This document shows positions 2,319 through 33,262 of a stretch of 36,538 bases of DNA, one piece after another; the stretch's first letter is position 1, and each line of letters begins with the position of its first letter. This DNA is from a virus. The notes under the pieces are model-generated. The model had not been told where the DNA came from, made no database searches, and was given only the letters and a program-made list of their open reading frames with translations. A program made the position numbers and the translations under genes. The stretch is taken from the IMG/VR virus record IMGVR_UViG_3300045738_000553, positions 1 through 36,538 of that record; one strand, 5' to 3'.

Positions 2319-2368
2319 GGTTGAGTTCCTTGCTGCGGTTGGTTACTGTTTTCTTCATTACACTAGTG

Positions 2369-2396
2369 AATATATCGACCCGCTATATTCATTCAA
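2369..2396 (-). promoter_or_regulatory. Leftward early promoter with palindromic operator
   Basis: On the minus strand a -35-like TTGAAT (2391-2396) and a -10-like TATATT (2369-2374) are 16 bases apart. The spacer and -10 lie in a palindrome at 2368-2390, with arms GAATATA and TATATTC around a 9-base centre. The same 23 bases recur exactly at 33240-33262 facing the other early operon. Sigma-70 type recognition and control by a dimeric repressor or activator are inferred. Confidence 0.65.
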
Positions 2397-2514: not shown

Positions 2515-4251
2515 GTGAAACCACCCAAGATATTTGAGGGCAGCGTTCAGCATGAAGCATTCCAGCGGGCTGTCGAACGGCTGGCTGTGGCCTCAGACAT
2601 CCGCTCTGGCGACAGTGACGAGATGGTTGAAGCACGCATGGCGGCACGGGATGGTGAGCCTGAAAAGATCATTGCCCTCCTCTGGCCGCAGCTCACCGTG
2701 ACTGGTGAGGAGGCAAAGCTGCTTGGGCGTTCACTCCGGCTGGATGACTTCCAGTATGACCTGATCCGCTCAGTGTTGAGCGGGACATATCAGGAGGTGG
2801 CGGTGAAGGGGGCTGCCAGTGCTGGGAAGGGGTTTGCAATCTCCATAGCGGTTTTGATCTGGTACTTCATTCACCCGGATGCTCTGGTGGTGATGACATC
2901 GGCTAGTTTTGATCACGTGCGCAAAGTCATCTGGGCTGAGGTGCGCAAGTGGTTTGAGGAGAGCCGGGTCACATTCCCCGGCAAGATGCTGAAGGAGCAA
3001 GTTGATGGCGGGCCAAAGCGGTACATCAAGCTGGCCAACCCGGATTCAGATGAGGCATTTGCCGGCCACCACAGCTCTGCCGTGCTGTTTGTTTTTGATG
3101 AGGCCACGGCGGTGCGTGACGAGCGGTACAACCTCGCCAAGACTCAGGCACACTGCATCGTCTCTGCCGCAAACCCTCGCACACTGTCTGGCTGGTTCCG
3201 GCAGTTGTTCCCCAAGGTTGACCCGGACAAGACGCAGGATGTGGACACGGCATTTGGGAAGCGGCGGTTGGTGTCTGTCGATGGCGCAGAGTGCGCCAAC
3301 GTGCGATTTGACCGCATGATAATTCCGGGACAGTTGGACAGCCAGCGGTTCAAGGGGCTGATGGCTGAGGCTGACCAGCGTTGGGTGGATGTGTTTGCTC
3401 ACGGTAGGTTCCCTGTGGAAGATCCGGCCAAGCAATTGATCATTGGGTCATGGCTGGAGCGGCATGAGGAGGCATGGGAGAAGGGGCTGCCGGTTGAGGC
3501 ATTCGGTCTGGATGTTGCGGCATCAGCGACTGGTGACGAAACAGTGCTGGCGGCGGGGGGAGCCAATGGGGTGGCGGCACTACACAAGACCCGTAAGGCA
3601 GACACGATGGAAGCAGTGGGCTGGGTAGTGGCGACGGTGAAGGAGGTGTACCACATTGACTTGTCTCTTGGGCAGCACCCCCTTTGCGTTGACACTGACG
3701 GGTTGGGGAAGGGGATTGGTGACCGGTTGCAGGAGCTGGGCATTTGGGTCATACCGCACACAGGTAATTCGCCATCCAAGGCAGATCCACGCCTGTACCA
3801 AAACCTGAGAGCAGAATCCTATGGCGAGCTGGCCCGCAGACTTGACCCAAGAGGGCCGTGGGGAGATACACCGTGGGCCTTGCCGATTGACCCGTTGCTG
3901 AGGGAGGAGCTGGTGGCACCAGAGAAGGTCATTGCCAGCGATGGAATACGGTTCCGCATCACCCCCAAAGAGGTTCATTCATCACGCAAAGGTTCAGTGT
4001 TGAGCCTGCGTGACAAACTGGGCCGGAGTCCTGACACCTCAGATGCTGTCGTGTACCTGTATTTGGCGGTGCGGAATTTGGGTGAATGGTCTGACTATGA
4101 TTACAGCCACGTCCACATAGCGTACACCAATGCTGACCGGGTTGGGCACTGGACGGCAGAGGAGGAGGAGCGGATGCCGGAACCAGTCAAAGACCTGTTT
4201 GACCTTTACAATTCCCGGAAGCCAACTGCGCCATGGGCAGAGCCAGAGTGA
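2515..4251 (+). CDS. terL: Terminase large subunit
   Basis: A 578-residue packaging motor that translocates DNA into the prohead and cuts it. The ATPase half shows Walker A GAASAGKG (about 99-106), Walker B LFVFDEA (191-197) and the coupling motif SAANP (217-221). The C-terminal RNase H-like nuclease has acidic residues in FGLDVAASATGDE (Asp333), LCVDTDG (Asp393/395) and SPDTSDAV (Asp510). The start is GTG, six bases after an AGGGAG. No small terminase is recognised upstream; the first about 80 residues could include a DNA-binding part, or the small subunit lies outside. The end overlaps the next gene by 19 bases. Confidence 0.93.
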   Translation: MKPPKIFEGSVQHEAFQRAVERLAVASDIRSGDSDEMVEARMAARDGEPEKIIALLWPQLTVTGEEAKLLGRSLRLDDFQYDLIRSVLSGTYQEVAVKGAASAGKGFAISIAVLIWYFIHPDALVVMTSASFDHVRKVIWAEVRKWFEESRVTFPGKMLKEQVDGGPKRYIKLANPDSDEAFAGHHSSAVLFVFDEATAVRDERYNLAKTQAHCIVSAANPRTLSGWFRQLFPKVDPDKTQDVDTAFGKRRLVSVDGAECANVRFDRMIIPGQLDSQRFKGLMAEADQRWVDVFAHGRFPVEDPAKQLIIGSWLERHEEAWEKGLPVEAFGLDVAASATGDETVLAAGGANGVAALHKTRKADTMEAVGWVVATVKEVYHIDLSLGQHPLCVDTDGLGKGIGDRLQELGIWVIPHTGNSPSKADPRLYQNLRAESYGELARRLDPRGPWGDTPWALPIDPLLREELVAPEKVIASDGIRFRITPKEVHSSRKGSVLSLRDKLGRSPDTSDAVVYLYLAVRNLGEWSDYDYSHVHIAYTNADRVGHWTAEEEERMPEPVKDLFDLYNSRKPTAPWAEPE

Positions 4252-4841
4252 TCCTTGTGGGGAACGGGCCGTCAGTTCTCGATCAGCGGCTGGGGCCGAC
4301 TGTTGATGACTTTGATATTGTGGTCAGGTTCAACAACTACCAGATTGAGGGATATGAGGCCCATGTCGGGACACGGACTGACTTTTGGTTCACGGTAGAT
4401 CACCGTCAAGCACGCCAACTGAGTAGCCACAATTTGAAGCGGGTGTATTGGTGGCGGCGGGGCGGGCTGGCGTTTGGTAAGATCAGACGCACATTCCCGG
4501 ATGCCATTCTGATTGACCCGGACACATACCGGGAGATTGACGAGGTGTCCGGCATTTCCAATTATCACAAGTGGTCAACCGGGGCCATTGCCGCTCATGT
4601 TCTCCTGAAGGAATATCCTTGTGTGTGGCTCATCGGATTTGACTGGTGGAGTGAGGGCGGGAGGTTACATTATGCTGACGACGACACGCTTGGTCGCACG
4701 CACAAACCTGAGCATGAGTTCAGCTTCCTCAACACGCTGGTCAGAGAGGGGATGGTGATTGACTTGAATCCTGATTCCAAGCTGACCGGAGATCAACCGG
4801 ACAGGCCGGACACGACACCCAAAACGGTGCGTGAGATATGA
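4233..4841 (+). CDS. GT29 sialyltransferase-like glycosyltransferase
   Basis: A 202-residue protein with the four motifs of family GT29 sialyltransferases. Motif L is VILVGNGPSVLD through VVRFNNY and VGTRTD (about 6-50). Motif S is STGA (115-118) to LIGFDWW (133-139). Motif III is HY (146-147). Motif VS is H157 with E162 in HKPEHEF. Known members move sialic acid from CMP-sialic acid to a glycan and form a Rossmann-like GT-A variant. It is a bare catalytic domain with no signal peptide or membrane anchor, so it would act in the cytoplasm. It sits oddly between terminase and portal, overlapping the terminase end. A related protein is encoded at 31548-32090. Donor and acceptor are unknown; CMP-Kdo or a related acid sugar is possible. 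Confidence 0.75.
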   Translation: MGRARVILVGNGPSVLDQRLGPTVDDFDIVVRFNNYQIEGYEAHVGTRTDFWFTVDHRQARQLSSHNLKRVYWWRRGGLAFGKIRRTFPDAILIDPDTYREIDEVSGISNYHKWSTGAIAAHVLLKEYPCVWLIGFDWWSEGGRLHYADDDTLGRTHKPEHEFSFLNTLVREGMVIDLNPDSKLTGDQPDRPDTTPKTVREI

Positions 4842-5434
4842 ATGCAATCACCGGGGCCGGGTTTGCCGTCACCTCCATGACCTGTTGCGGGGATGAATGG
4901 ATTGCTGATGCGTTGGATCAGGCAGAGATCCCGTGGGAGGACAGGGGGCTGCGGGTTGATGACTGGACGGTTGACGGCACCTCTGTACTGTTTGTTCTGC
5001 GTGACCCTGTGTCGTGGTATCGGGAATACATACTGGATGTAACAAAGGGGCTGGGGGAGTTCCATGAGCTGGACGGGGAGATTGAGGTTGTGTTTCACCA
5101 TCTGGGCCGTGAGCCAGAGGTGGCCTTGAACGTGTCGGCCCTGAACATCTGCGCACGGCAACCCGGTTGGCTCTCACGGGTTTACAAGATGTATGAATTG
5201 ACGCTCCTCCCGGTTTGGGACAGGGTAGCAGTGATGGACTATACTGACTTGGCTGTCGGGTTGAAGCGGTTTATGATAACTACCGAAGTGGACGGTGCTG
5301 AACGGTTGACGGAGGGCGTGTTTGAGGATGAGTCAGAGGGGCCGCAACTGTTCTCCAAGACAAGGCTGGACATACAGCGGGAGGAGGGCCGGGCATATTC
5401 TCAATTTGCCCAGATGTTGGGATGGTCAAGCTGA
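4838..5434 (+). CDS. Hypothetical protein, possibly sulfotransferase-like
   Basis: A 198-residue protein overlapping the GT29-like gene by ATGA, so probably co-translated. The segment VLFVLRDPVSWYREYI resembles the 3'-phosphate-binding strand and helix of sulfotransferases (usually RDP with nearby Ser/Tyr), and an N-terminal GAGFAVTSMTCCGDEW could be a degenerate cofactor loop. The classical 5'-phosphosulfate loop is not clear, so the assignment is weak. Linkage to a glycosyltransferase would fit a glycan-modifying role. Confidence 0.55.
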   Translation: MNAITGAGFAVTSMTCCGDEWIADALDQAEIPWEDRGLRVDDWTVDGTSVLFVLRDPVSWYREYILDVTKGLGEFHELDGEIEVVFHHLGREPEVALNVSALNICARQPGWLSRVYKMYELTLLPVWDRVAVMDYTDLAVGLKRFMITTEVDGAERLTEGVFEDESEGPQLFSKTRLDIQREEGRAYSQFAQMLGWSS

Positions 5435-9070: not shown

Positions 9071-9285
9071 CCAAAAGCAAGCACAGGTGTGATGAAAAGC
9101 AAGCACAGAGAATCACACTGCTTTTGTAGGGTCAAATGGAAAGGCAAGCAAAGGCAACCACAAAGCAAGCACAGTTGACCAGACTCCTCCGGCAGCCACC
9201 TGAATTCGACCAAGATCAATCACAAGTCAAGCAAAGGCAAGCAACAGTCAGCACAAGTCAATCACAAAGGCAAGCAACACAGTGA
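9071..9285 (+). repeat. CAAGCA repeat element, copy 1
   Basis: A T-poor stretch between portal and a glycosyltransferase gene, built from imperfect 10-11-base units ending in CAAGCA (seven clear copies), at about one helical turn spacing. It aligns over its whole length with copy 2 at 29738-29963, including the GCACAGGTGTGATGAAAAG start, a TGCTTTT block and the ATGGAAAGGCAAGC block. An imperfect hairpin, CAGAG-AATCA-CACTG, lies at about 9107-9121; in copy 2 it is perfect. The element ends exactly at the GTG of the next gene. It encodes a small frame (see 9136-9285). Possible roles are a protein-binding array, an unstructured leader or a recombination site. Confidence 0.8.
9136..9285 (+). CDS. 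Small Gln/Lys/Ala-rich peptide encoded in repeat copy 1
   Basis: A 49-residue frame starting MERQAKATTKQAQLTRLLRQ. Its stop overlaps the GTG start of the downstream glycosyltransferase as GTGA, the coupling seen throughout this genome. Repeat copy 2 holds a homologous frame (MERQAKASKG, RLLSQP, FDQKQAKAS) that likewise overlaps its downstream gene. No strong ribosome site is seen. It may be a leader peptide or an accident of the repeat. Confidence 0.4.
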   Translation: MERQAKATTKQAQLTRLLRQPPEFDQDQSQVKQRQATVSTSQSQRQATQ

Positions 9286-10001
9286 TTCAGTTGATCCGGG
9301 GGGTTTGGGGTGAGTCCGACAGGCCGTCATATCTGCGGGCGATGAAGGACATGAGCCTGTTTGAAAGCACCCCGTCAAGGGGGATGGAGGTTGGAGAGAG
9401 CATAGTGTTTTGCTTTGGCCGGGATAACATCAAGATGATGGAGGAGAGGGGGCATGAAATAAGGGTGTTGAGCGAAGATCCTGTGATCCACCGGGAGTCA
9501 ACCGGAGCCACTGAAACGGCAGCCAACTGGACGCACAAGATTGACGTGATTGAAGCGGCCATGAAGGAGTTTGGGGATGTCCTCTGGACGGACTGGGATG
9601 TGGCTCAACTGAGGCCGCTGGATGAGGGGTTTGAGGATATGGTCAGCGGCGGGCCGTCAGTCCAAAGCTCACTGACCGGATACCGGCGCAAGTATGCCAG
9701 CTGGCGAAGCGGAAACAGGAACTGTTTGCCGGCAGGGGCGTGGCTGTTTTATCGTGGTGACAGCCGGGGGGCTGAGGTGTTGGAATTGGTGCGGCGGTTC
9801 CTGCCCTTCACCCTCAACAGGCTTGGAGAAAACCACTACCATGACGAGCATGCTTTGGCGATGGCTGCGGAGGAGTTGAGCGGGGGCTGGAGGGGAATTG
9901 ACTGGTGGGAGGAAAACTATGAGCCAGCGGTGGTGTACCATCGGAGGGCAGCGTGCAAGTTGAGTCAGATACCTGATGGCAAGTATTTCAGAATCAAGTG
10001 A
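9282..10001 (+). CDS. Glycosyltransferase-like protein (GT-A type)
   Basis: A 239-residue protein. The segment FGDVLWTDWDVAQLRPLDE (about residues 97-115) is a DxD-type metal- and nucleotide-sugar-binding strand, followed by an acceptor-side region (NCLPAGAWLFYRGD) and a late DEHALAMAAEE. This is the layout of small GT-A transferases. It starts at GTG, coupled to the repeat-encoded peptide. It is separated from the main sugar cluster by 17 kb, among head genes, and the repeat element upstream suggests it arrived as a mobile unit. Exact family, donor and acceptor are unknown. Confidence 0.65.
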   Translation: MIQLIRGVWGESDRPSYLRAMKDMSLFESTPSRGMEVGESIVFCFGRDNIKMMEERGHEIRVLSEDPVIHRESTGATETAANWTHKIDVIEAAMKEFGDVLWTDWDVAQLRPLDEGFEDMVSGGPSVQSSLTGYRRKYASWRSGNRNCLPAGAWLFYRGDSRGAEVLELVRRFLPFTLNRLGENHYHDEHALAMAAEELSGGWRGIDWWEENYEPAVVYHRRAACKLSQIPDGKYFRIK

Positions 10002-24183: not shown

Positions 24184-26211
24184 ATGGCTGTTTCAAAGAT
24201 ACCGGAATACAACAAAGCGGTTGGTGACGCTATCTCTGCGCGTGAGTGGAACCGGACGCAGCGTGACCTCCAGATGGTCACGATGGGGAACCTCAAAGGC
24301 AACCAGCAAACAAGGCACACATCCGCTGGGCAAGTTTCTGTGCCCAACCAAAACCTCAAGATCCAATTGGTTGAAATCGCACCGGAGGGGATTGGCCCGG
24401 AGGAGTCAGGTGAGTTTGTTAATTGCAGGGCATTCCCTGTGGTCTGGCAGGGGCCGGGGGCGACTCAGGGCTGGAAGGTTGACAAGAACACAACGCTGTA
24501 CAGGATAGCAGATGCCTACAAGCACCTGATCGTTGACCCCGGCCAGCGGTGTCTGTTGTACTTCCACAGACAGAGCGGCATGTGGCTCCCAATGAGCCAA
24601 GTGACGATGCGGCACGTGCGTACATGCCGGAGCCAAGGTGGTGTGTATCCTGAGATTGACCTGTCGCTGGGAGAGGTTGCGAACACGTTTCCAATTGAGC
24701 ATATCACCACCAGCTACGCAACACCTGCGATGGAGGGCGGGGATGCTGATCCAGAGAATTTTCGGCAAACGCTGGAGACGGTTATTTGGGGCAAGCATAT
24801 CCAGCCACTTGAACCTGACGTTGGCTTGAACGCGTTTGATCGAGATCCTCCCCACGGCGGCCACATGGCGGCAGGTCTCGGTCACTTCACCCGCACCGGG
24901 TATGTCCACAACCTGTACAAGCCTACCGGGGATGAGTGCGGGGGGCTGCGTTGCGGGACAGAGTATATTCCAGAAGGGACAGTTGTCCCGGCATGGTTCC
25001 ATAACGGGCAGTGGTACACGTTCTGCAAATATGCGGTTGACGAAACCAGCAGCAGCTCCTCCTCATCAACCAGCTCATCATCAACCAGCTCATCCTCCTC
25101 ATCCTCCAGCTCCTCCAGCTCAAGTTCATCCAGCTCCTCCTCATCCTCCAGTTCCAGCAGCTCAAGTTCATCCAGCTCATCCTCATCATCCAGCTCCTCC
25201 TCGTCATCATCCTCCTCGTCATCATCCTCCTCCAGCTCCAGCTCCAGCTCACCGTTCAAGTCATCCTCCAGCAGCTCACCCCTCAAGTCATCCAGCAGCT
25301 CACCCCTCAAGTCCTCCAGCAGCTCACCCCTCAAGTCATCCAGCAGCTCCCCGTCCAGCCAGAGCAGCACAAGTCCGGGAGAGGGGTGCTGCTATATGTA
25401 TGGCCCCAACTTCACGATCACAGGAGGAGATGGAGATGCGCCGTGTCAGTTGACCATTCCAGTGTTTGAGATTTGCATTGTTGAGGATGAGGAGGTGTCG
25501 GATGGCGGCGGGGGAATTGCCGTCAAGTTGGAATGTACGGAGATCGGTGACGACACAGTGGAGATACCGTGCTGCTGTCCCGATGTGGCAGGCATGTCCA
25601 GTGCGTCAAGTCCGTCCAGCGAGAAGTTCAGCAGCGAGGGGTTCAGCGGTGAAGGATGCTGCGAGGCCATACCTGACACGCTGTACCTCCGGGTGGGCCT
25701 GACATGGAATGCGATCACGTGCACGGGCGGCGGCGGGATGCCGGAAACCATAACCTGCTGTGACCAAGTTTTGGTGGCAATGACCGCAACAACTGAAGGC
25801 GCACACACCTGTTGCGGAGATGCCTCCACAAACAACAAGCGTTGGGTTGGTACCGGGTCACATACATTTGGGTGTCCAACAAGCGGCACTCATCACTGCG
25901 GGGATGATTGCGACGATTTCAGTTGCACGGTTGACCTGAGTAAATTTCAAGCGGTCTGCTGTTGCGACACTGTGGCTTGCGACGGGGCCGACTCAAATGT
26001 TCACATCGGATTTGATGACGGGTCAACCGTTCATTGCGGTGCCGCACTTGGATGCAATAACTTCCCCGGCACTTGCGAGCAGCATACAGGCGGTGGCCTG
26101 TTCAATGCAGTGACTTGCCCCGGACAAGGGGTGACATCAATGACCATTCAACTGTATGACGCTTCACCCAGTATTGACTGTGATGATTGCGGTGAGTGTA
26201 CTGACCTTTAG
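24184..26211 (+). CDS. Tail protein with poly-serine linker and cysteine-rich end
   Basis: A 675-residue protein in three parts. Residues 1-288 are a folded N-terminal part probably attached to the tail (AREWNRTQRDLQMV, ATQGWKVDKNTTLYRI). Residues 289-395 are a Ser tract: about 65 nearly pure Ser, then four P(F/L)K-Ser repeats. Residues 396-675 are Cys-rich with many CC or CCC groups (GEGCCYMYG, EIPCCCPD, GEGCCEAI, AVCCCDT), likely disulfide or metal-bound. This looks like a receptor-binding fibre on a flexible stalk. The Ser tract is a natural target for O-glycosylation by the transferases encoded immediately downstream. Confidence 0.82.
   Translation: MAVSKIPEYNKAVGDAISAREWNRTQRDLQMVTMGNLKGNQQTRHTSAGQVSVPNQNLKIQLVEIAPEGIGPEESGEFVNCRAFPVVWQGPGATQGWKVDKNTTLYRIADAYKHLIVDPGQRCLLYFHRQSGMWLPMSQVTMRHVRTCRSQGGVYPEIDLSLGEVANTFPIEHITTSYATPAMEGGDADPENFRQTLETVIWGKHIQPLEPDVGLNAFDRDPPHGGHMAAGLGHFTRTGYVHNLYKPTGDECGGLRCGTEYIPEGTVVPAWFHNGQWYTFCKYAVDETSSSSSSSTSSSSTSSSSSSSSSSSSSSSSSSSSSSSSSSSSSSSSSSSSSSSSSSSSSSSSSSSSSSSPFKSSSSSSPLKSSSSSPLKSSSSSPLKSSSSSPSSQSSTSPGEGCCYMYGPNFTITGGDGDAPCQLTIPVFEICIVEDEEVSDGGGGIAVKLECTEIGDDTVEIPCCCPDVAGMSSASSPSSEKFSSEGFSGEGCCEAIPDTLYLRVGLTWNAITCTGGGGMPETITCCDQVLVAMTATTEGAHTCCGDASTNNKRWVGTGSHTFGCPTSGTHHCGDDCDDFSCTVDLSKFQAVCCCDTVACDGADSNVHIGFDDGSTVHCGAALGCNNFPGTCEQHTGGGLFNAVTCPGQGVTSMTIQLYDASPSIDCDDCGECTDL
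25048..25370 (+). repeat. Serine-codon tract inside the tail protein
   Basis: About 320 bases of AGC, TCC and TCA codons with interspersed CCCTCAAG repeats (four PLK/PFK units). The codons are mixed irregularly, which avoids a perfect DNA repeat and suggests selection for the serine tract itself rather than recent slippage. A long antisense frame here is an artefact. Confidence 0.85.
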
Positions 26212-26341: not shown

Positions 26342-27046
26342 GTGAAAGTCATCTGTATACCGGTACAATCGGGGAGGGGGTTGCGGAATCAGCCGTTGCT
26401 CAAGAAGGGGGGCCGGAGCCTGCTGCGCTATACATTTGAGGCAGCCTGCCGTGCGAGGACATTTGACCGCATCATAATTGCTACCGACAGCCGGGAGGTT
26501 CAGCAGCACGCAGCTGATTGGCCGGTTCAGATTGTCGAGACGGGCCGACATGACAGCAGGACAGAGAGGGTTGCGGAGGCAATTCACCGGACAGCCAACT
26601 GCGCTGAGGTGGTGGTCAGCCTCCAAGTGAATCATCCGGGGATGCCCGGAGCATATCTGGATGCGGTTGCGGAGGGGGTCAAGAGAACTGGAACCATCAC
26701 GACATTGGCGGCACCGCTCCCGGAGCTGGGCCAGTCGGTTGACGAAAACAGAATGAAAGTGATTGTGTCCAAAGCGGGGTCAGCGTTATATTTCACCAGA
26801 GCAGAATTGGCGGGGGCATATCAACAGTTGGGGTGCTATGGGTTCACAGTCTCGCAACTGGAACGCATTAGCAAGATGCCCTCCTCTGCACTTGCGACAG
26901 CAGAGCGGCTGGAACAACTTGGGTGGCTGGACAACGGGATGGCCGTGTCTGCCATTCGTGTTGAACGCTGCGTTGCTGCCATCAACACGCAGGAGGATTG
27001 GGAGCATTGGGAGCCACCGACAGACGACCACCGTGTGATTATCTAG
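26342..27046 (+). CDS. KdsB-like CMP-sugar synthetase with altered active site
   Basis: A 234-residue member of the CMP-Kdo/CMP-sialate synthetase family, which joins CTP to an acid sugar. Visible family blocks are IIIATDS (44-50), DSRTERVAEA (71-80), GSALYFTRA (145-153), CYGFTV (165-170) and the long helix SSALATAERLEQLGWLDNG (181-199). Two metal-binding positions differ from KdsB: the QGDEP block reads QVNHP (95-99), and the final VDTPED block reads INTQED (214-219), so both Asp are Asn. The Lys of GKPL is Gln in NQPL. It is about 15-20 residues shorter than bacterial KdsB. The GTG start heads the sugar cluster. Activity may be lost, changed or regulatory. Confidence 0.78.
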   Translation: MKVICIPVQSGRGLRNQPLLKKGGRSLLRYTFEAACRARTFDRIIIATDSREVQQHAADWPVQIVETGRHDSRTERVAEAIHRTANCAEVVVSLQVNHPGMPGAYLDAVAEGVKRTGTITTLAAPLPELGQSVDENRMKVIVSKAGSALYFTRAELAGAYQQLGCYGFTVSQLERISKMPSSALATAERLEQLGWLDNGMAVSAIRVERCVAAINTQEDWEHWEPPTDDHRVII

Positions 27047-28224
27047 GCAAGATCCTGCTCACCAGAAAGCTGGTGAGCGGGGAGTCATTTCAGATTCATG
27101 CTTGCGACCACAAGGATCACAGGCAGGCCAGCGTGTCGATATGTGCCGCGTGCAAAGACTACTCCACCAAGGGTGAGAGGCTGGAGGTTGATCTGTCACC
27201 GGCAATTTCCCTGCCGACAATACTGACACTGGACAGTGCGCCAAGCAGGAATGCGGCGCAGCCTGTGTATCCAGACAACCCTGTTGATGCGTCACGCCGC
27301 ACAAAGCGGCGGTGGAGGCGCAGCATGAAGGATAACAGAGTCAGCTCAGGTGGGCGGCGAATGATAAATGAATCCAGCCCTGAAGCTGTGTATGACCGCT
27401 GCGGGAGGCGTGGAGGGTTTGCGGGTTTGTACTATGGGGCTGACTTGTATCTGCTCCTTGGCGGGCCATCTGTCGGCACTCTGGACTTGACCAAACTTGA
27501 CCAGAGGGGAATCGTCAGCATGGCGGTCAACAATGCTGCGCTGACCTACAGAACCAACCTGTTCATTTGCGGTGACCCGCCAAGGAAATTTCATGATGCG
27601 ATCTGGCGTGACCCCGGCATCACCTGTTTCCTCCCAAGGGCAAAGATGTGGAATGAGATGTATGAGAGGAGGGCCAGTGGCCGGATTGATACGGCACATG
27701 AGCAGATTCAGTTCCAGCCGGGGGTTGTCGGGTATGATCGCAACACAAACTTTGATCCAGAGCGGTTCCTGACGGAGCCAACGGTCAGCTTTGGCAACTC
27801 CAAGAAGCACAAAAACAATTGGCCGCCAGTTCTGTCCACGATGTTCTCGGCATTGAAGATGGCTTGGTGGCTTGGGTTTTTCCGGGTGTACCTGCTGGGT
27901 TGCGACTGGCACTGGGATTATCATAAGACACCGTACAGCTTTGAGATGAAGCGGGCCGTCAACGTATACGCATCCAACAACTCCTCATATGCTAAAATGG
28001 TGCCCATGATGGAGGCATTGAAGCCGGTATTTGATGATGCTAATTTTGAGGTGTACAACTGCAACCCGGAGAGCAAGTTGACGACATTCCCGCATGTACC
28101 ATTTGAGTCAGCAATCAAATCAAGCGCCAGCAGAATCCCCCTCAACCTGAGCGGGCAGAACTGGTACGGCAAGGATGGTGATGACGAGAAATTTAACCGT
28201 GGTGAAATCGAGGAGGAGAAGTGA
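27007..28224 (+). CDS. GGPS-motif glycosyltransferase-like protein with Cys-rich start
   Basis: About 405 residues. The main domain begins DLYLLLGGPSVGTLDL and goes on to VSMAVNNAAL and LFICGDPP, with a late VYLLGCDWHWDY, the same layout as GT29/GT42 or DUF115-type nucleotide-sugar transferases. The first about 45 residues hold spaced Cys and His (PPCDYLGK, HACDHKDH, ICAACKDYS), a probable zinc knuckle found before phage glycosyltransferases. The start is a TTG at 27007 or 26998 beside AGGAGG; without it the Cys domain would be lost. It overlaps the end of the KdsB-like gene by about 40 bases. Confidence 0.65.
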   Translation: MGATDRRPPCDYLGKILLTRKLVSGESFQIHACDHKDHRQASVSICAACKDYSTKGERLEVDLSPAISLPTILTLDSAPSRNAAQPVYPDNPVDASRRTKRRWRRSMKDNRVSSGGRRMINESSPEAVYDRCGRRGGFAGLYYGADLYLLLGGPSVGTLDLTKLDQRGIVSMAVNNAALTYRTNLFICGDPPRKFHDAIWRDPGITCFLPRAKMWNEMYERRASGRIDTAHEQIQFQPGVVGYDRNTNFDPERFLTEPTVSFGNSKKHKNNWPPVLSTMFSALKMAWWLGFFRVYLLGCDWHWDYHKTPYSFEMKRAVNVYASNNSSYAKMVPMMEALKPVFDDANFEVYNCNPESKLTTFPHVPFESAIKSSASRIPLNLSGQNWYGKDGDDEKFNRGEIEEEK

Positions 28225-28649
28225 TGGCAAAGTCTCAGACAAACAATGTGGGAGTCGGGCCGCTGGCCCACCCGGAGATAGCAACCCGGATTCAAGAAGC
28301 GGATAAGTCACAAAGGTATTTGATTGCGGTGTGGTCGCTGACGGATGATCCTGACGGGGAGGAGCTGGCTGACGGGGGCATAGCCATGAGGCTGAACTAC
28401 ACCATGATCACCAACGGGTTCCCATCACTGGACTTGCCCACGGCACTTGCGATGTTCACTGATTCCATCAGTGATTTCCAGCTCCAAGCACTCAAGCAAT
28501 CTGGAGACGTGATACGCAATGCTGAAACGGTGGGGGAGGAAAAAATGCAGGGAAGGCCAAGCGGCGTTGTGTCCAAGAAGCGGCGCAGGAAAAAGGCCCA
28601 AGGGCAAAAGCCACTCACGCTGCGCAAGCCCAAGGGCAAGAAGAAATGA
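28224..28649 (+). CDS. Hypothetical protein with basic tail
   Basis: A 141-residue protein starting MAKSQTNNVGVGPLAHPEI, with GGAGGAGAAG before the ATG. The middle (GGIAMRLNYTMITNGFP, ALAMFTDSISDFQLQAL) is ordered and the end is very basic (KKRRRKKAQGQK, LRKPKGKKK). It overlaps neighbours on both sides and is probably co-expressed with the sugar genes. The tail could bind nucleic acid or membrane. No family is recognised. Confidence 0.68.
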   Translation: MAKSQTNNVGVGPLAHPEIATRIQEADKSQRYLIAVWSLTDDPDGEELADGGIAMRLNYTMITNGFPSLDLPTALAMFTDSISDFQLQALKQSGDVIRNAETVGEEKMQGRPSGVVSKKRRRKKAQGQKPLTLRKPKGKKK

Positions 28650-29041
28650 TCAAGGCATGGGGCTTGACGGAGCGGATGGTTGCCACCGACAGGATGCAGG
28701 TGGAATACATCCTTGTTGAGCCGGGCGGGTTCTGCTCAGTTCATTATCATAACGACAAGGACAATCTGTTTGTCGGGCTGACCGGCTGCCTGACAGTGCG
28801 GTGGGGGTGGCGGGAGGGTTATCACCTTGGGCCATGCCCAATGATTGAGAGTTTGACCGGGGTGTCATCGCCTGTCTTTATTCCAGCGGGGGTGATACAC
28901 CAGTTTGAAAATACAGGGCAGGTGCGGGCAACCGCCATTGAGGTGTACCGGCCCAAGCCGGGTTTGCGTTTGGAGTTGGGAGACATCGAGCGGTTCACAT
29001 CAGGGGGGCGAAATGTCGGTCACGGTTCTGGTGGGGATTGA
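28646..29041 (+). CDS. Cupin-fold protein, sugar-isomerase-like
   Basis: A 131-residue single cupin domain. Motif 1 is GFCSVHYHNDKDN (29-40) with His33 and His35; the usual Glu is Asn40. Motif 2 is PAGVIHQFEN (80-89) with His85. The layout recalls small mannose-6-phosphate isomerase-like and sugar-epimerase cupins. In a sugar cluster it may isomerise or epimerise a nucleotide sugar, although the missing Glu weakens metal binding. It overlaps the next gene by 29 bases. Confidence 0.75.
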   Translation: MIKAWGLTERMVATDRMQVEYILVEPGGFCSVHYHNDKDNLFVGLTGCLTVRWGWREGYHLGPCPMIESLTGVSSPVFIPAGVIHQFENTGQVRATAIEVYRPKPGLRLELGDIERFTSGGRNVGHGSGGD

Positions 29042-29759
29042 CGACAGCCATGTCGGGGAAATGGAAGTGGCTTGGGGGTCATGGCGATTGAACCGCGCGC
29101 AAATTCTAGGTGAACGATTGATGTTTGTTTGCGACAGGGCGGGGGGGTCGTGGAGGGACTGGTCACGCAGGCTATCATTTTGCGACCACCCTGAGATCAC
29201 GGCCATCATGTGGGACGGTGATCACCTCCGGGAGCAGGGAGCCGATCAGAGGGAGGTGATGCTGACCGGTCTGGTCTGGGCTGCGGCCAGAATTAAAACA
29301 ACCCACTATGTCAAAATTGATACAGACACCGTGGCCGTTCAGCCGGGGGAATGGATTGACCCGGAGTGGACGGATGAAACCTATGCGTTCACGTCTCATC
29401 GGTGGGGATACACAAGGCCAAGCAGCTTCATATCGGCGTTGGACGATTGGTCTGAAACCGTACCAGAATTGGCGGGTGGAAATCCCCCGGTCAAGTCCCT
29501 CCCGGATAACCCGCGTGCGAGGGTGCGGCACAGGCGCATTCAGTCATGGTTCCTTCTTGGGACAACCCGGTTTGCGAGACTGGTATGGGGGATGATTGAG
29601 CGGGGCGGGGGCCGGATGCCTTGCCCATCACAGGACACAATTCTGTGGTACGTGGCAGAGAGAATGGGCTGGCCGTATCAGCGTGTCAATCTCAAGGCAC
29701 GGGGATGGGATCACGGGCGGCATGCGCTGAAAAGATGGCACAGGTGTGATGAAAAGTGA
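29013..29759 (+). CDS. Glycosyltransferase-like protein (GT-A type)
   Basis: A 248-residue protein starting MSVTVLVGIDDSHVGEMEV. The strand VKIDTDTVAVQPGEW (about 99-113) is a DxD nucleotide-sugar motif; RLSFCDHP and QSWFLLGTTRF are further parts of a GT-A fold. The ATG at 29013 follows a G-rich site and overlaps the cupin gene. Its last 22 bases (encoding HRCDEK and stop) are also the first bases of repeat copy 2, and the same bases occur in copy 1 far away without the gene. Donor and acceptor are unknown. Confidence 0.68.
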   Translation: MSVTVLVGIDDSHVGEMEVAWGSWRLNRAQILGERLMFVCDRAGGSWRDWSRRLSFCDHPEITAIMWDGDHLREQGADQREVMLTGLVWAAARIKTTHYVKIDTDTVAVQPGEWIDPEWTDETYAFTSHRWGYTRPSSFISALDDWSETVPELAGGNPPVKSLPDNPRARVRHRRIQSWFLLGTTRFARLVWGMIERGGGRMPCPSQDTILWYVAERMGWPYQRVNLKARGWDHGRHALKRWHRCDEK

Positions 29760-29963
29760 CCACAGGGAATCACCCTGCTTTTATAGGGTGAGATGGAAAG
29801 GCAAGCAAAGGCAAGCAAAGGCAAGCACAAAGCAAGCACAAAGCAAGCACAGGCGGTCAGACTCCTCTCGCAGCCGGTTGGATTTGACCAAAAGCAAGCA
29901 AAGGCAAGCAACAGTCAAGCACAAGTCAAGCACAAGTCAAGCACAGGGGGGATAACGCTATGA
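29738..29963 (+). repeat. CAAGCA repeat element, copy 2
   Basis: Longer copy of the element at 9071-9285, with ten CAAGCA units in two blocks spaced about 10-11 bases apart. It contains the perfect hairpin CAGGG-AATCA-CCCTG (about 29762-29776). The upper strand is almost free of T in the repeat blocks. It runs from the end of one glycosyltransferase gene to the start of the next and ends in CTATG, where the peptide stop overlaps the start. Confidence 0.82.
29793..29963 (+). CDS. Small Lys/Gln/Ala-rich peptide encoded in repeat copy 2
   Basis: A 56-residue frame starting MERQAKASKGKHKASTKQAQ and ending at a TGA that overlaps the downstream ATG as ATGA. It corresponds to the 49-residue frame in copy 1 with an eight-residue insertion from extra repeat units. 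A second frame in the same DNA (MKSDHRES, CFYRVRWKGKQRQ from 29748) is conserved for about 20 residues as well, so it is not settled which is translated. Confidence 0.4.
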   Translation: MERQAKASKGKHKASTKQAQAVRLLSQPVGFDQKQAKASNSQAQVKHKSSTGGITL

Positions 29964-30721
29964 AAACCGGGCGCACGACGGTTGTATTGACGAACTGGAA
30001 GCGGCCCGGAAATTTGCTGCGGATTGTCGAGGCATTCCGACATCAGACAGTGGCTCCCGCAGCGATGGTTTTGGTTGACAATCACCCGGAGGATGAAGGG
30101 CAGTTTGCAATATCTGAGGAGCTGGCCTCAAAGTTCAGTGACGTGTACCGGTTTGGAGTCAACGCTGGGCCACCCTGCCGGTTTGTCGGTGCGAGTTTTG
30201 CGACCACAGAATTTGTCCTGTTTTGCGACGATGATATGATGCCGGGGAAGCGGGCAGTTGAGGCATATGAAGAACAGTCTGATGCGTTGGGGGGGAAATT
30301 CTCTACACTGAGTGATGTGGGTAGAATCTACCGGGGGAACATGGAGCAGGGCTACACAATTCTCAGGCGTAATGTCCGCAGGAATACTGATGCCCCGTCC
30401 ATGACAGACATGACCTGTCGGGCGCATTTTCTGTACTCGGAACACGTGTGGATAGCACTGCGAGATCGGATGCGGGCGGCGCAGGAGGGGGCCACGGCTG
30501 CGATGTTAATGAATGACGACATCTTCATGTCTCAGGGAATCCAGCTGGAGACTGGCTGGCCCAGTTACGTGAGCCGGGATGTAGGCCATGACGCCAAGTT
30601 GCGACACAAGGATTTGCCGGCACCCCGTGCCTTGAACAGCACCGCAGATCATCACCAGAGCCGGGATGCCTTGGTCAACTGGTACGGTGGAAGGGGGTGG
30701 AGAAGCAAATGGCGGATGTGA
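29960..30721 (+). CDS. Family 2 glycosyltransferase
   Basis: A 253-residue GT2 protein. It begins TTVVLTNWKRPGNLLRIVEAF, the first strand and helix of the family, followed by MVLVDNHPEDE and the metal-binding CDDDMMPGK (about 93-101). A late NDDIFMSQG supplies the likely catalytic acidic residues. GT2 enzymes transfer a sugar from a UDP- or GDP-donor with inversion. No membrane segment is seen, so it is cytoplasmic. It follows repeat copy 2 directly and overlaps the next gene by 13 bases. Confidence 0.8.
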   Translation: MKTGRTTVVLTNWKRPGNLLRIVEAFRHQTVAPAAMVLVDNHPEDEGQFAISEELASKFSDVYRFGVNAGPPCRFVGASFATTEFVLFCDDDMMPGKRAVEAYEEQSDALGGKFSTLSDVGRIYRGNMEQGYTILRRNVRRNTDAPSMTDMTCRAHFLYSEHVWIALRDRMRAAQEGATAAMLMNDDIFMSQGIQLETGWPSYVSRDVGHDAKLRHKDLPAPRALNSTADHHQSRDALVNWYGGRGWRSKWRM

Positions 30722-31545
30722 GGCACGGGGTATTGTATTTCATAGCTGGGAAGCGGCATTGGCCCGTGTTGGTTGTGTCGCTGATGTCGCTGCGAGATCA
30801 CTGGACAGGGCCGGTTGGAATTATGCTGGGAGATGATTATGCGGAGGAGCTGTTTGGGCTTCTGGATAAGGGGGGGCTGGGGCCGCTGATCCCAATACCA
30901 TTCAAGCAAAAGTCCTATGGGCGCAATTCAGGATACATGAACAAGATCAAGATGATCGAGCTGAGTCCATTCGACTCCACCGTGTTCCTTGACGCAGATA
31001 CGGCTGTGGTCAAGACACTTGACCCTTTGTTCGTCACTCCATCCGGGCGTGTCCGGCTGACGCGGTATTCTGATTGGGTGACAACCGGGGGCCGGATCAA
31101 GAGTCGCATCCTGTCGTGGTCGGAGGTAGCACCGGAGCTGGTGAAGGAGCAGACAAGCAATACATATCCTGCTATCAACACGGGGGTTGTTGCGTTTGGG
31201 AAGGGGGAGCGGTCAATGGAGTTCGCAAGGGACTGGAGAGCAACTGCGGAGTTGAGGGCAGGTTCATTCCTCGCAGATGAACTTGCGGCTCAATTGATCT
31301 GGTTGAGGCAAGGGGCAGAGATAGTTGATGACAGGTGGAACTGCTCACCAATCTATGGAGCCAACCGGGAGGGGGTGCATGTCTGGCACTTTCACGGCAG
31401 GAAGCATCTGCGGAAACAGGCAGAGCAGATCTGGTGGCCGTTGTACCAGAGAGCCATTCGGGATAATGTCGGAGGGATACGGGATTGGACGCCAGCCAGC
31501 GACAACCGGCTGGCGCAATTTCTGAAACAGAAAGGTATGGTGTGA
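30709..31545 (+). CDS. GT8-like glycosyltransferase
   Basis: A 278-residue protein with the GT8 pattern: MNKIKMIELSPFDSTVFLDADTAVVKTLDPLF (DAD metal site at about 92-94, seen in part), then YPAINTGVVAFGKG (acceptor loop) and GVHVWHFHGRKHLR (the late His motif). Retaining GT8 enzymes use UDP-sugars. The ATG at 30709 has GGAG six bases upstream; a GTG at 30697 is an alternative. It belongs to the tightly packed sugar cluster. The substrate is unknown. Confidence 0.78.
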   Translation: MADVRHGVLYFIAGKRHWPVLVVSLMSLRDHWTGPVGIMLGDDYAEELFGLLDKGGLGPLIPIPFKQKSYGRNSGYMNKIKMIELSPFDSTVFLDADTAVVKTLDPLFVTPSGRVRLTRYSDWVTTGGRIKSRILSWSEVAPELVKEQTSNTYPAINTGVVAFGKGERSMEFARDWRATAELRAGSFLADELAAQLIWLRQGAEIVDDRWNCSPIYGANREGVHVWHFHGRKHLRKQAEQIWWPLYQRAIRDNVGGIRDWTPASDNRLAQFLKQKGMV

Positions 31546-31547
31546 GG

Positions 31548-32090
31548 ATGTCGTCAAAATTGCTGGAACAGATACGCAAGTCACGGTTGCCATCCATCGT
31601 GTTGATCGGCAATGGGCCAAGCGCAACTGATGTCGAGCTTGGGGAGTTGATTGACGGGTTTGAGGAGGTTGTCCGGTTCAATTCATATCCGCGTGGGGAT
31701 GAATACGCAGCGATGGTTGGAACCCGGATGACCACTTGGGTGTTGAATGAGGCACAGCCCGGTGACCTGCGGCCATCCATTGGGGTGTCGTTCATTCGCA
31801 TCTTGTCGGAGGGGTACACCAACCGGTTCCATGCTGACGCAAAGTTGGCGAGGACGCACCCAGACATTGACAACCCAAGTTCAGGCGTGATCATGGCCGC
31901 CAATTTTCTGCGGAACGGCATCAAGGTGTACACTGTCGGGATGGACGGGTATGACGGAGCTGAGAGGCACTACTGGTCTGCTGACACGGGCGGTCAGCAG
32001 GACAGCGACAGGGAGCATGATGTCGCACAGGAGAATCTGTTTTGGGACAGCAACAGGTTGACCATGATCCCGCTGAGAGAGGTGATGTGA
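31548..32090 (+). CDS. Second GT29 sialyltransferase-like glycosyltransferase
   Basis: A 180-residue protein with the GT29 set: motif L IVLIGNGPSATD and EVVRFNSY (17-47), motif S SSGVIMAAN to YTVGMDGYD (111-136), motif III HYW (141-143) and motif VS H157 with E162 (EHDVAQEN). It is shorter than the protein at 4233-4841 but has the same motifs at almost the same residue numbers. The ATG at 31548 lies just after the previous stop; the frame continues upstream inside that gene without need. It should use a CMP-activated sugar. Acceptor unknown. Confidence 0.73.
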   Translation: MSSKLLEQIRKSRLPSIVLIGNGPSATDVELGELIDGFEEVVRFNSYPRGDEYAAMVGTRMTTWVLNEAQPGDLRPSIGVSFIRILSEGYTNRFHADAKLARTHPDIDNPSSGVIMAANFLRNGIKVYTVGMDGYDGAERHYWSADTGGQQDSDREHDVAQENLFWDSNRLTMIPLREVM

Positions 32091-32827
32091 AAATGCAGCT
32101 TGAGATCGTCACCCACTGCTGGCGGTACTGGAGGGCATTGACTTACCAGATCAGCAGTTTGATTCTCCATCCACCGGTTCACAGCGATGTCTTGCTGACC
32201 GTGTTCTGTTCCCCGGAGGAGGATGAGAACACGGCCAAGAGGTTGGAGCAGATTGCTGGCTGGGATCTGCCGACCAACATCAGCTACCGGGTGTGGACGC
32301 TGCCAAGAGGGGAGCTGTGTCGGAGGGCAATTGGAAGGAACATGGCGGCGCAATCGACAGCAGCCGATGTAGTCTGGTTCATTGATTGCGACATGACGCT
32401 GGGGGATGGAGCGGTGGATGCCCTCGCAAGTCAGGTATGGTCGCAGCCGGAGGGTGTGCTGTTCTACCCACGGTGGGTTCAGGTTCCAGAACAGAAGCGT
32501 GGCGACAAAATCCTGATGGCGGCAACAGAGGTGGACGGGCCGTGTGAAGTTGACCAGACGGGATTCATGCGGAAGCGGTACAACAGGGCCATTGGTGGCG
32601 TCCAGATAGTTGACGGCGATTGCTGCCGGGCTGTCGGATATTTGCCAGACAGCAAAAAGTATCAGCGACCAGCGGAAGAATGGGCACGCACTTTTGAGGA
32701 CAGGGCATACAGGGGCTGGCTGGACAAACAGTATGGATCAGGGCGTGGCCGCAGGTTGGAGCTGCCGGAGGTGTGCCGGATACGACACACGCAACGGGGG
32801 CGGTTTGACCGGGGGCTGGAATTGTGA
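32087..32827 (+). CDS. Family 2-like glycosyltransferase
   Basis: A 246-residue GT-A transferase. It starts at a GTG overlapping the previous stop (GTGA): MKMQLEIVTHCWRYWRAL. The strand VVWFIDCDMTLGDGAVDAL holds the DxD site, preceded by RRAIGRNMAAQSTAADV, where GT2 members sense an undamaged arrival order. A late PAEEWARTFEDRAY has the general-base-like Glu/Asp. It is the last gene of the sugar cluster. Confidence 0.72.
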   Translation: MKMQLEIVTHCWRYWRALTYQISSLILHPPVHSDVLLTVFCSPEEDENTAKRLEQIAGWDLPTNISYRVWTLPRGELCRRAIGRNMAAQSTAADVVWFIDCDMTLGDGAVDALASQVWSQPEGVLFYPRWVQVPEQKRGDKILMAATEVDGPCEVDQTGFMRKRYNRAIGGVQIVDGDCCRAVGYLPDSKKYQRPAEEWARTFEDRAYRGWLDKQYGSGRGRRLELPEVCRIRHTQRGRFDRGLEL

Positions 32828-33232: not shown

Positions 33233-33262
33233 TTGAAAGGAATATAGCGGGTCGATATATTC
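33233..33262 (+). promoter_or_regulatory. Rightward early promoter with palindromic operator
   Basis: TTGAAA (33233-33238) and TATATT (33256-33261) are 17 bases apart, a strong sigma-70-like arrangement. The 23-base palindrome GAATATA-9-TATATTC at 33240-33262 is identical to that of the leftward promoter at 2368-2390. About 40 bases separate it from the first gene. The pair would let one regulator switch both early operons. Confidence 0.72.

Follow-up and report, generated by a model that had tools for sequence, protein, structure and literature searches.

Genes of the island and the head module

The window, i.e., the whole stretch of DNA analysed here, is a 36,538-base IMG/VR virus record that is classed as linear with an empty completeness field, and is probably a fragment of a larger phage genome. 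Comparison with PHROGs identified genes for terminase, a portal protein with a MuF domain, protease, major capsid protein and tape-measure protein in the window. Nine closely packed open frames, all on the plus strand, constitute an island at 26342-32827, and codon usage gave each of them a coding signal in its own frame relative to the two other frames. The island encodes a KdsB-type cytidylyltransferase relative (p1), p2, p3, a cupin (p4), four proteins with DxD motifs (p5, p6, p7 and p9) and a GT29 protein (p8). The head module holds a second GT29 protein (h1) and a further DxD protein (h3). All of the genes named in a preliminary description of this DNA were present where it had placed them, but it had counted eight frames instead of nine, leaving p3 unlisted. 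No relatives of p1, p8 or terminase were found in single-protein scans of viral contigs, and the virus appears isolated among the contigs scanned with these three proteins. Matches in viral contigs were obtained only with alignments of two to four GT29 sequences.

The second protein of the island, p2 (27361-28224, plus strand), is a putative GT42-like transferase with a GGPS motif and an uncertain start codon, its frame being open from 26965. It matched phrog_4603, annotated as "alpha-2,3-sialyltransferase" (E 3.9e-9), and showed no Pfam or PDB match; its single-sequence model had a pLDDT of 35. The cupin p4 (28646-29041, plus strand) resembles the ManC C-terminal domain and WbuC, and scored 31.7 bits, above the cut-off, against PF01050. 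Labels of GT-A and GT8 type had been proposed for the DxD proteins. The motifs are indeed present, but the family assignments were sub-threshold for three of the proteins and found no family match for p5 and h3. Probable GT2 protein p6 (29960-30721, plus strand; DDD motif) came closest, falling just below the PF00535 cut-off of 23.3 bits (20.4 bits, E 5e-4) and matching the MftF and EpsD models with E values of 2e-6 to 6e-5. The probable GT-A protein p9 (32093-32827, plus strand; DCD motif) scored 12.2 bits (E 0.18) against the same PF00535 model, and the probable GT8-like protein p7 (30709-31545, plus strand; DAD motif) scored 15 bits (E 0.018) against PF01501, the cut-off of which is 24.3 bits. 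No PDB match was obtained for p7, and neither p2 nor p7 had a tblastn match in phages. For p5 (29013-29759, plus strand; DTD) and h3 (9282-10001, plus strand, after the portal gene; DWD), both probable GT-A proteins, the DxD motif, read by eye, is the only indication.

Neither p3 (28224-28649, plus strand), a small protein with a basic C-terminus, nor h2 (4838-5434, plus strand), which overlaps the end of h1, matched any family. We noticed that a stretch of h2, RDPVSWYREY, resembles a sulfotransferase motif. A true sulfotransferase (PF00685) is encoded at L045:812-1465, 5' of a cytidylyltransferase gene in another phage, and L009:6507-7220 was noted alongside these two loci.

Directly 5' of the island, a gene at 24184-26211 (plus strand) encodes a protein with 122 Ser residues, including a Ser/Thr run of 69 residues and SSSSSPLK repeats, which makes it a candidate glycan acceptor. 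The idea that Ser/Thr-rich proteins are regular companions of phage GT29 proved weak, as they occurred at 5 of 41 loci, three of those inside the GT29 frame itself.

The KdsB-type protein p1

The first gene of the island, p1 (26342-27046, plus strand), has a GTG start with an AGGAGG-like site 5' of it. Its product scored 68.2 bits against PF02348 (cut-off, 22.6), placing it in the cytidylyltransferase family as had been proposed. The best NCBIfam matches were KdsB models (79-137 bits), all of them below the respective cut-offs of 155-281. The residues that bind the triphosphate in the Aquifex KdsB are R10, T14, R15 and K19, and those that bind Mg-A are D95 and D219 (PMC3149649). We compared p1 with 17 KdsB proteins, 6 from phages and 11 from bacteria. 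At the six positions listed above, p1 carries Q, R, G, Q, N and N, respectively. R10 and K19 are kept by all of the 17 comparators, and both D95 and D219 are Asp in 17/17. An HMMER alignment again indicated the loss of R10 (Q or deleted), K19 and both Asp residues in p1. The status of S13 and R15 varies with gap placement, and the HMMER alignment could keep both.

The remainder of the protein is better conserved. Among 21 columns invariant in the 17 KdsB proteins, p1 retains 11, mostly outside the CTP/Mg site, and K139, R153 and Y166 of the C-terminal domain are retained together with the LEQL motif. The losses concern 7 of the 8 invariant columns of the CTP/Mg site, compared with 10/21 overall (hypergeometric P ~0.007, computed post hoc on a single alignment). 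Thus, p1 resembles KdsB CMP-Kdo synthetases in length, domain order, structural invariant residues and best profile match, but differs from them in the replaced residues and in its scores below the NCBIfam cut-offs. The gene had been proposed to make a CMP-sugar. Judged from its sequence, p1 is unlikely to act as a CMP-sugar synthetase, because R10 and K19 of the CTP loop and both Mg-binding Asp residues have been replaced, and it is best read as a degraded or repurposed KdsB. No relative shares the changed residues.

The GT29 proteins p8 and h1

GT29 is usually treated as a family of eukaryotic sialyltransferases, for which a bacterial origin has been proposed. Both p8 (31548-32090, plus strand) and h1 (4233-4841, plus strand, between the terminase and portal genes) exceeded the PF00777 gathering cut-off of 23 bits, with 34.7 and 53.4 bits, respectively. 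Aligned pairwise, the two proteins show 36% identity, and both contain GNGPS..RFN, S[ST]G, HY[WA] and Hx4E, with the His residues of motifs III and VS kept; in p8, the sialylmotifs read GNGPS..RFN (L), PSSG (S), HYW (III) and Hx4E (VS). In phmmer searches, h1 matched ST6GalNAc2 (E 2.8e-6) and ST3Gal1 (E 2.5e-5). A profile built from 15 viral sequences, p8 and h1 among them, matched only sialyltransferases in the PDB (ST3Gal1, E 5e-19), among them the GT42 enzyme CstII (E 2.5e-8). When the GT29 profile was built without p8 and h1, it scored 147 bits for h1 and 86 bits for p8, and at most 4.4 bits for 1,000 shuffled controls. The AF2 model of p8 (pLDDT 72) predicts the GT29 variant of the GT-A fold: the top 30 Foldseek matches in the PDB were all GT29 proteins (best E 2.9e-5, TM ~0.5). 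The GT29-like calls of the preliminary description are thus borne out, and the profile searches placed the GNGPS proteins within GT29 rather than outside GT29/GT42; we regard the membership of p8 and h1 in GT29, as a matter of sequence, as settled.

Both phage proteins share family and four sialylmotifs, and p8 also the predicted fold, with ST3Gal1, ST6GalNAc2, bacterial members (PMC5811610) and plant RCKT1/MGP2 (PMC11288761), but are short (180-202 residues), soluble, single-domain proteins with no membrane anchor. Their family membership suggests a CMP-sugar as the donor, and the work on RCKT1/MGP2 supports the use of CMP-Kdo by a GT29 protein in plants (PMC11288761).

GT29 and cytidylyltransferase genes in other phages

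The pairing of GT29 with a cytidylyltransferase had been considered unusual for one phage, and we rejected the possibility that it is unique to the window phage. We assembled 38 GT29-bearing IMG/VR records, 23 confirmed by PF00777 and 15 by tblastn to a GT29 query. A cytidylyltransferase was found in 12/38 (2/23 of the PF00777 set and 10/15 of the tblastn set), leaving 26/38 with no visible cytidylyltransferase. These 12 contigs represent ~7 lineages, as G027-G030, G033/G034 and G036/G037 look closely related by their matching hits. The two genes are adjacent in G027-G030, and mostly ~1 to 3 kb apart elsewhere. None of six unrelated viral contigs used as a control carried a cytidylyltransferase, a sample too small for a rate.

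Further genes for ulosonate synthesis accompany GT29 in several phages. NeuB homologues lie near GT29 in L009, L054-L057, L062 and L064/L065, and, in the huge phage LR756508, within the GT29 cluster itself. Another huge phage, LR756500 (L010, L016), encodes KdsB, a KdsD-like isomerase and a KdsA that scores above its equivalog cut-off; a GT29 gene lies ~8.5 kb from them. At L009:612-9966 (IMGVR_UViG_3300035698_015077), eight GT29-like genes are arranged nearly in tandem, together with genes for an MptE-like/methyltransferase protein, a cytidylyltransferase and NeuB; this is apparently a complete phage nonulosonate module. L068-L070, GT29-bearing phages as well, encode a fusion of a DRE-TIM aldolase-like domain with a KdsB domain, the latter scoring above NCBIfam KdsB subfamily cut-offs in L069; such a fusion may provide an uncommon route to a CMP-keto-sugar. 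At the other aligned phage cytidylyltransferase loci, the N-terminal loop motif is retained, as is the final Asp in all but L078. Owing to this recurrence and the retained loop motif, we conclude that GT29 and the cytidylyltransferase form a genuine module in phages, to which the window, with its disabled member, is an exception. GT29 is clustered with a cytidylyltransferase and other transferases both in the window and in L009/G002, L054-L057, L062, L064/L065, LR756508 and LR756500, but in those modules the cytidylyltransferases are intact and are usually accompanied by NeuB, or by KdsA with a KdsD-like isomerase; the window has neither.

The open full texts searched contained one mention of GT29 as an auxiliary gene of viruses, in coral viromes (PMC11656804). 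They nowhere describe phage GT29 together with NeuB or KdsB, which is weak evidence because their coverage is incomplete. As a separate observation, L008:5980-8040 comprises two GT29 domains in a single 687-codon open frame.

Donor supply and possible roles of the island

A virus-encoded CMP-sugar pathway had been proposed for this DNA, but no homologues of KdsA, KdsD, NeuB or aldolase were found within the window, which is probably a fragment. As p1 lacks the catalytic residues, the activated sugar is probably drawn from the host. In one Gram-negative phylum, p1 had a match in 277 of 289 genomes, which makes host supply of the CMP-sugar donor plausible.

We consider it probable that the island, together with h1 and h3, constitutes a phage glycosyltransferase battery whose CMP-sugar-family members are fed by a host-made CMP-sugar, with p1 as a degraded or repurposed KdsB. 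Position and strand suggest that the battery belongs to a late operon and is expressed late. The DxD enzymes would assemble or lengthen a glycan, using ordinary nucleotide sugars. The two GT29 enzymes would transfer an acidic 2-keto sugar, for instance Kdo or a nonulosonate, from a donor activated with CMP; the GT42-like p2 probably adds an acidic 2-keto sugar too. Host KdsB or NeuA would be the most likely source of this donor, because p1, although it retains a KdsB scaffold, lacks the residues that bind the triphosphate of CTP and the catalytic Mg2+. Nevertheless, synthase genes or a second, intact cytidylyltransferase may lie outside the fragment, the host may not make CMP-Kdo, and the donor of a GT29 protein is unreadable from its sequence, and some bacterial and plant members could use other donors.

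Alternatively, p1 may be an active CMP-sugar synthetase that provides the phage GT29 proteins with CMP-Kdo or a comparable donor. Its intact coding frame, good ribosome-binding site and best matches to KdsB models (up to 137 bits), as well as the intact cytidylyltransferases adjoining GT29 in other phages, fit such a role. We nevertheless judge it quite unlikely, given the replacement of R10, K19 and both Mg-binding Asp residues, scores below every NCBIfam KdsB cut-off and the failure to find an ulosonate synthase in the window. It is attractive to speculate that p1 has instead been kept as a pseudoenzyme, which pairs with the host KdsB via the dimer domain or binds Kdo, and thereby reduces the CMP-Kdo of the infected host or channels it elsewhere. 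KdsB is a homodimer in which the C-terminal domain serves both for Kdo binding and for dimerization (PMC3149649); in p1, that domain keeps K139, R153, Y166 and the LEQL motif, and the losses cluster in the CTP/Mg site (with the post hoc, single-alignment P value given above). As a decaying gene could look alike and no relative shares the changed residues, we rate this reading as unlikely, although somewhat less so than an active p1. Its more specific form, in which p1 pairs or competes with the host KdsB so that host CMP-Kdo is diverted from LPS to the phage GT29 proteins, appears as doubtful as an active p1. Finally, the entire island may be decaying or recently acquired cargo with no present role, p1 being the first gene to degrade and others possibly following. 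The lost active site of p1, the transferases with no family match and the two intergenic repeat copies 5' of GT-A genes, suggestive of cassette movement, are in line with this idea. On the other hand, nine of the nine island frames are open and coding, every sialylmotif is kept in both GT29 proteins and five proteins carry DxD motifs, and we hold this to be the least probable of the readings considered here.

For the acceptor, we lean, from gene position, towards decoration of the virion rather than the host envelope, because the genes sit among structural genes, as does GT29 in L029 and L036, where it adjoins a GT-A-like gene. By analogy, alteration of the host surface against superinfection is nearly as likely. 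The cyanophage P-SSM2, which like the window phage possesses a cluster of enzymes for surface sugars, carries 24 LPS genes, and host-surface alteration against superinfection has been suggested for them (PMC2984593).

The recurring phage module of GT29 and CMP-sugar genes is, in our view, the most interesting result of this study. GT29 is a recurrent phage gene, present in eight GT29-like copies alongside NeuB and a cytidylyltransferase in one contig. In phages with enzymes for the synthesis, activation and transfer of acidic keto-sugars, virions or hosts would gain negative charge, with effects on adsorption and exclusion. Such phages also constitute a reservoir of GT29 enzymes that are small and soluble. 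The window offers a test case, namely a set of transferases whose own activating enzyme appears disabled.

Repeats and putative regulatory elements

An intergenic repeat made of 10-11 nt units (CAAGCAAAGG...) occurs in two divergent copies, at 9073-9261 (copy 1) and 29730-29955 (copy 2, plus strand), each directly 5' of a GT-A-like gene (h3 and p6, respectively). Copy 2 is first 86% and then 73% identical to copy 1. In viral contigs, a 22-nt query from the repeat had no match and an 18-nt query gave six unrelated single occurrences. We also noticed an exact 23-nt near-palindrome, GAATATAGCGGGTCGATATATTC, at 2368-2390 (minus strand) and 33240-33262 (plus strand), for which the chance expectation is none. 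Its copies lie 5' of one leftward and one rightward gene set, and the element looks like a shared operator or promoter.
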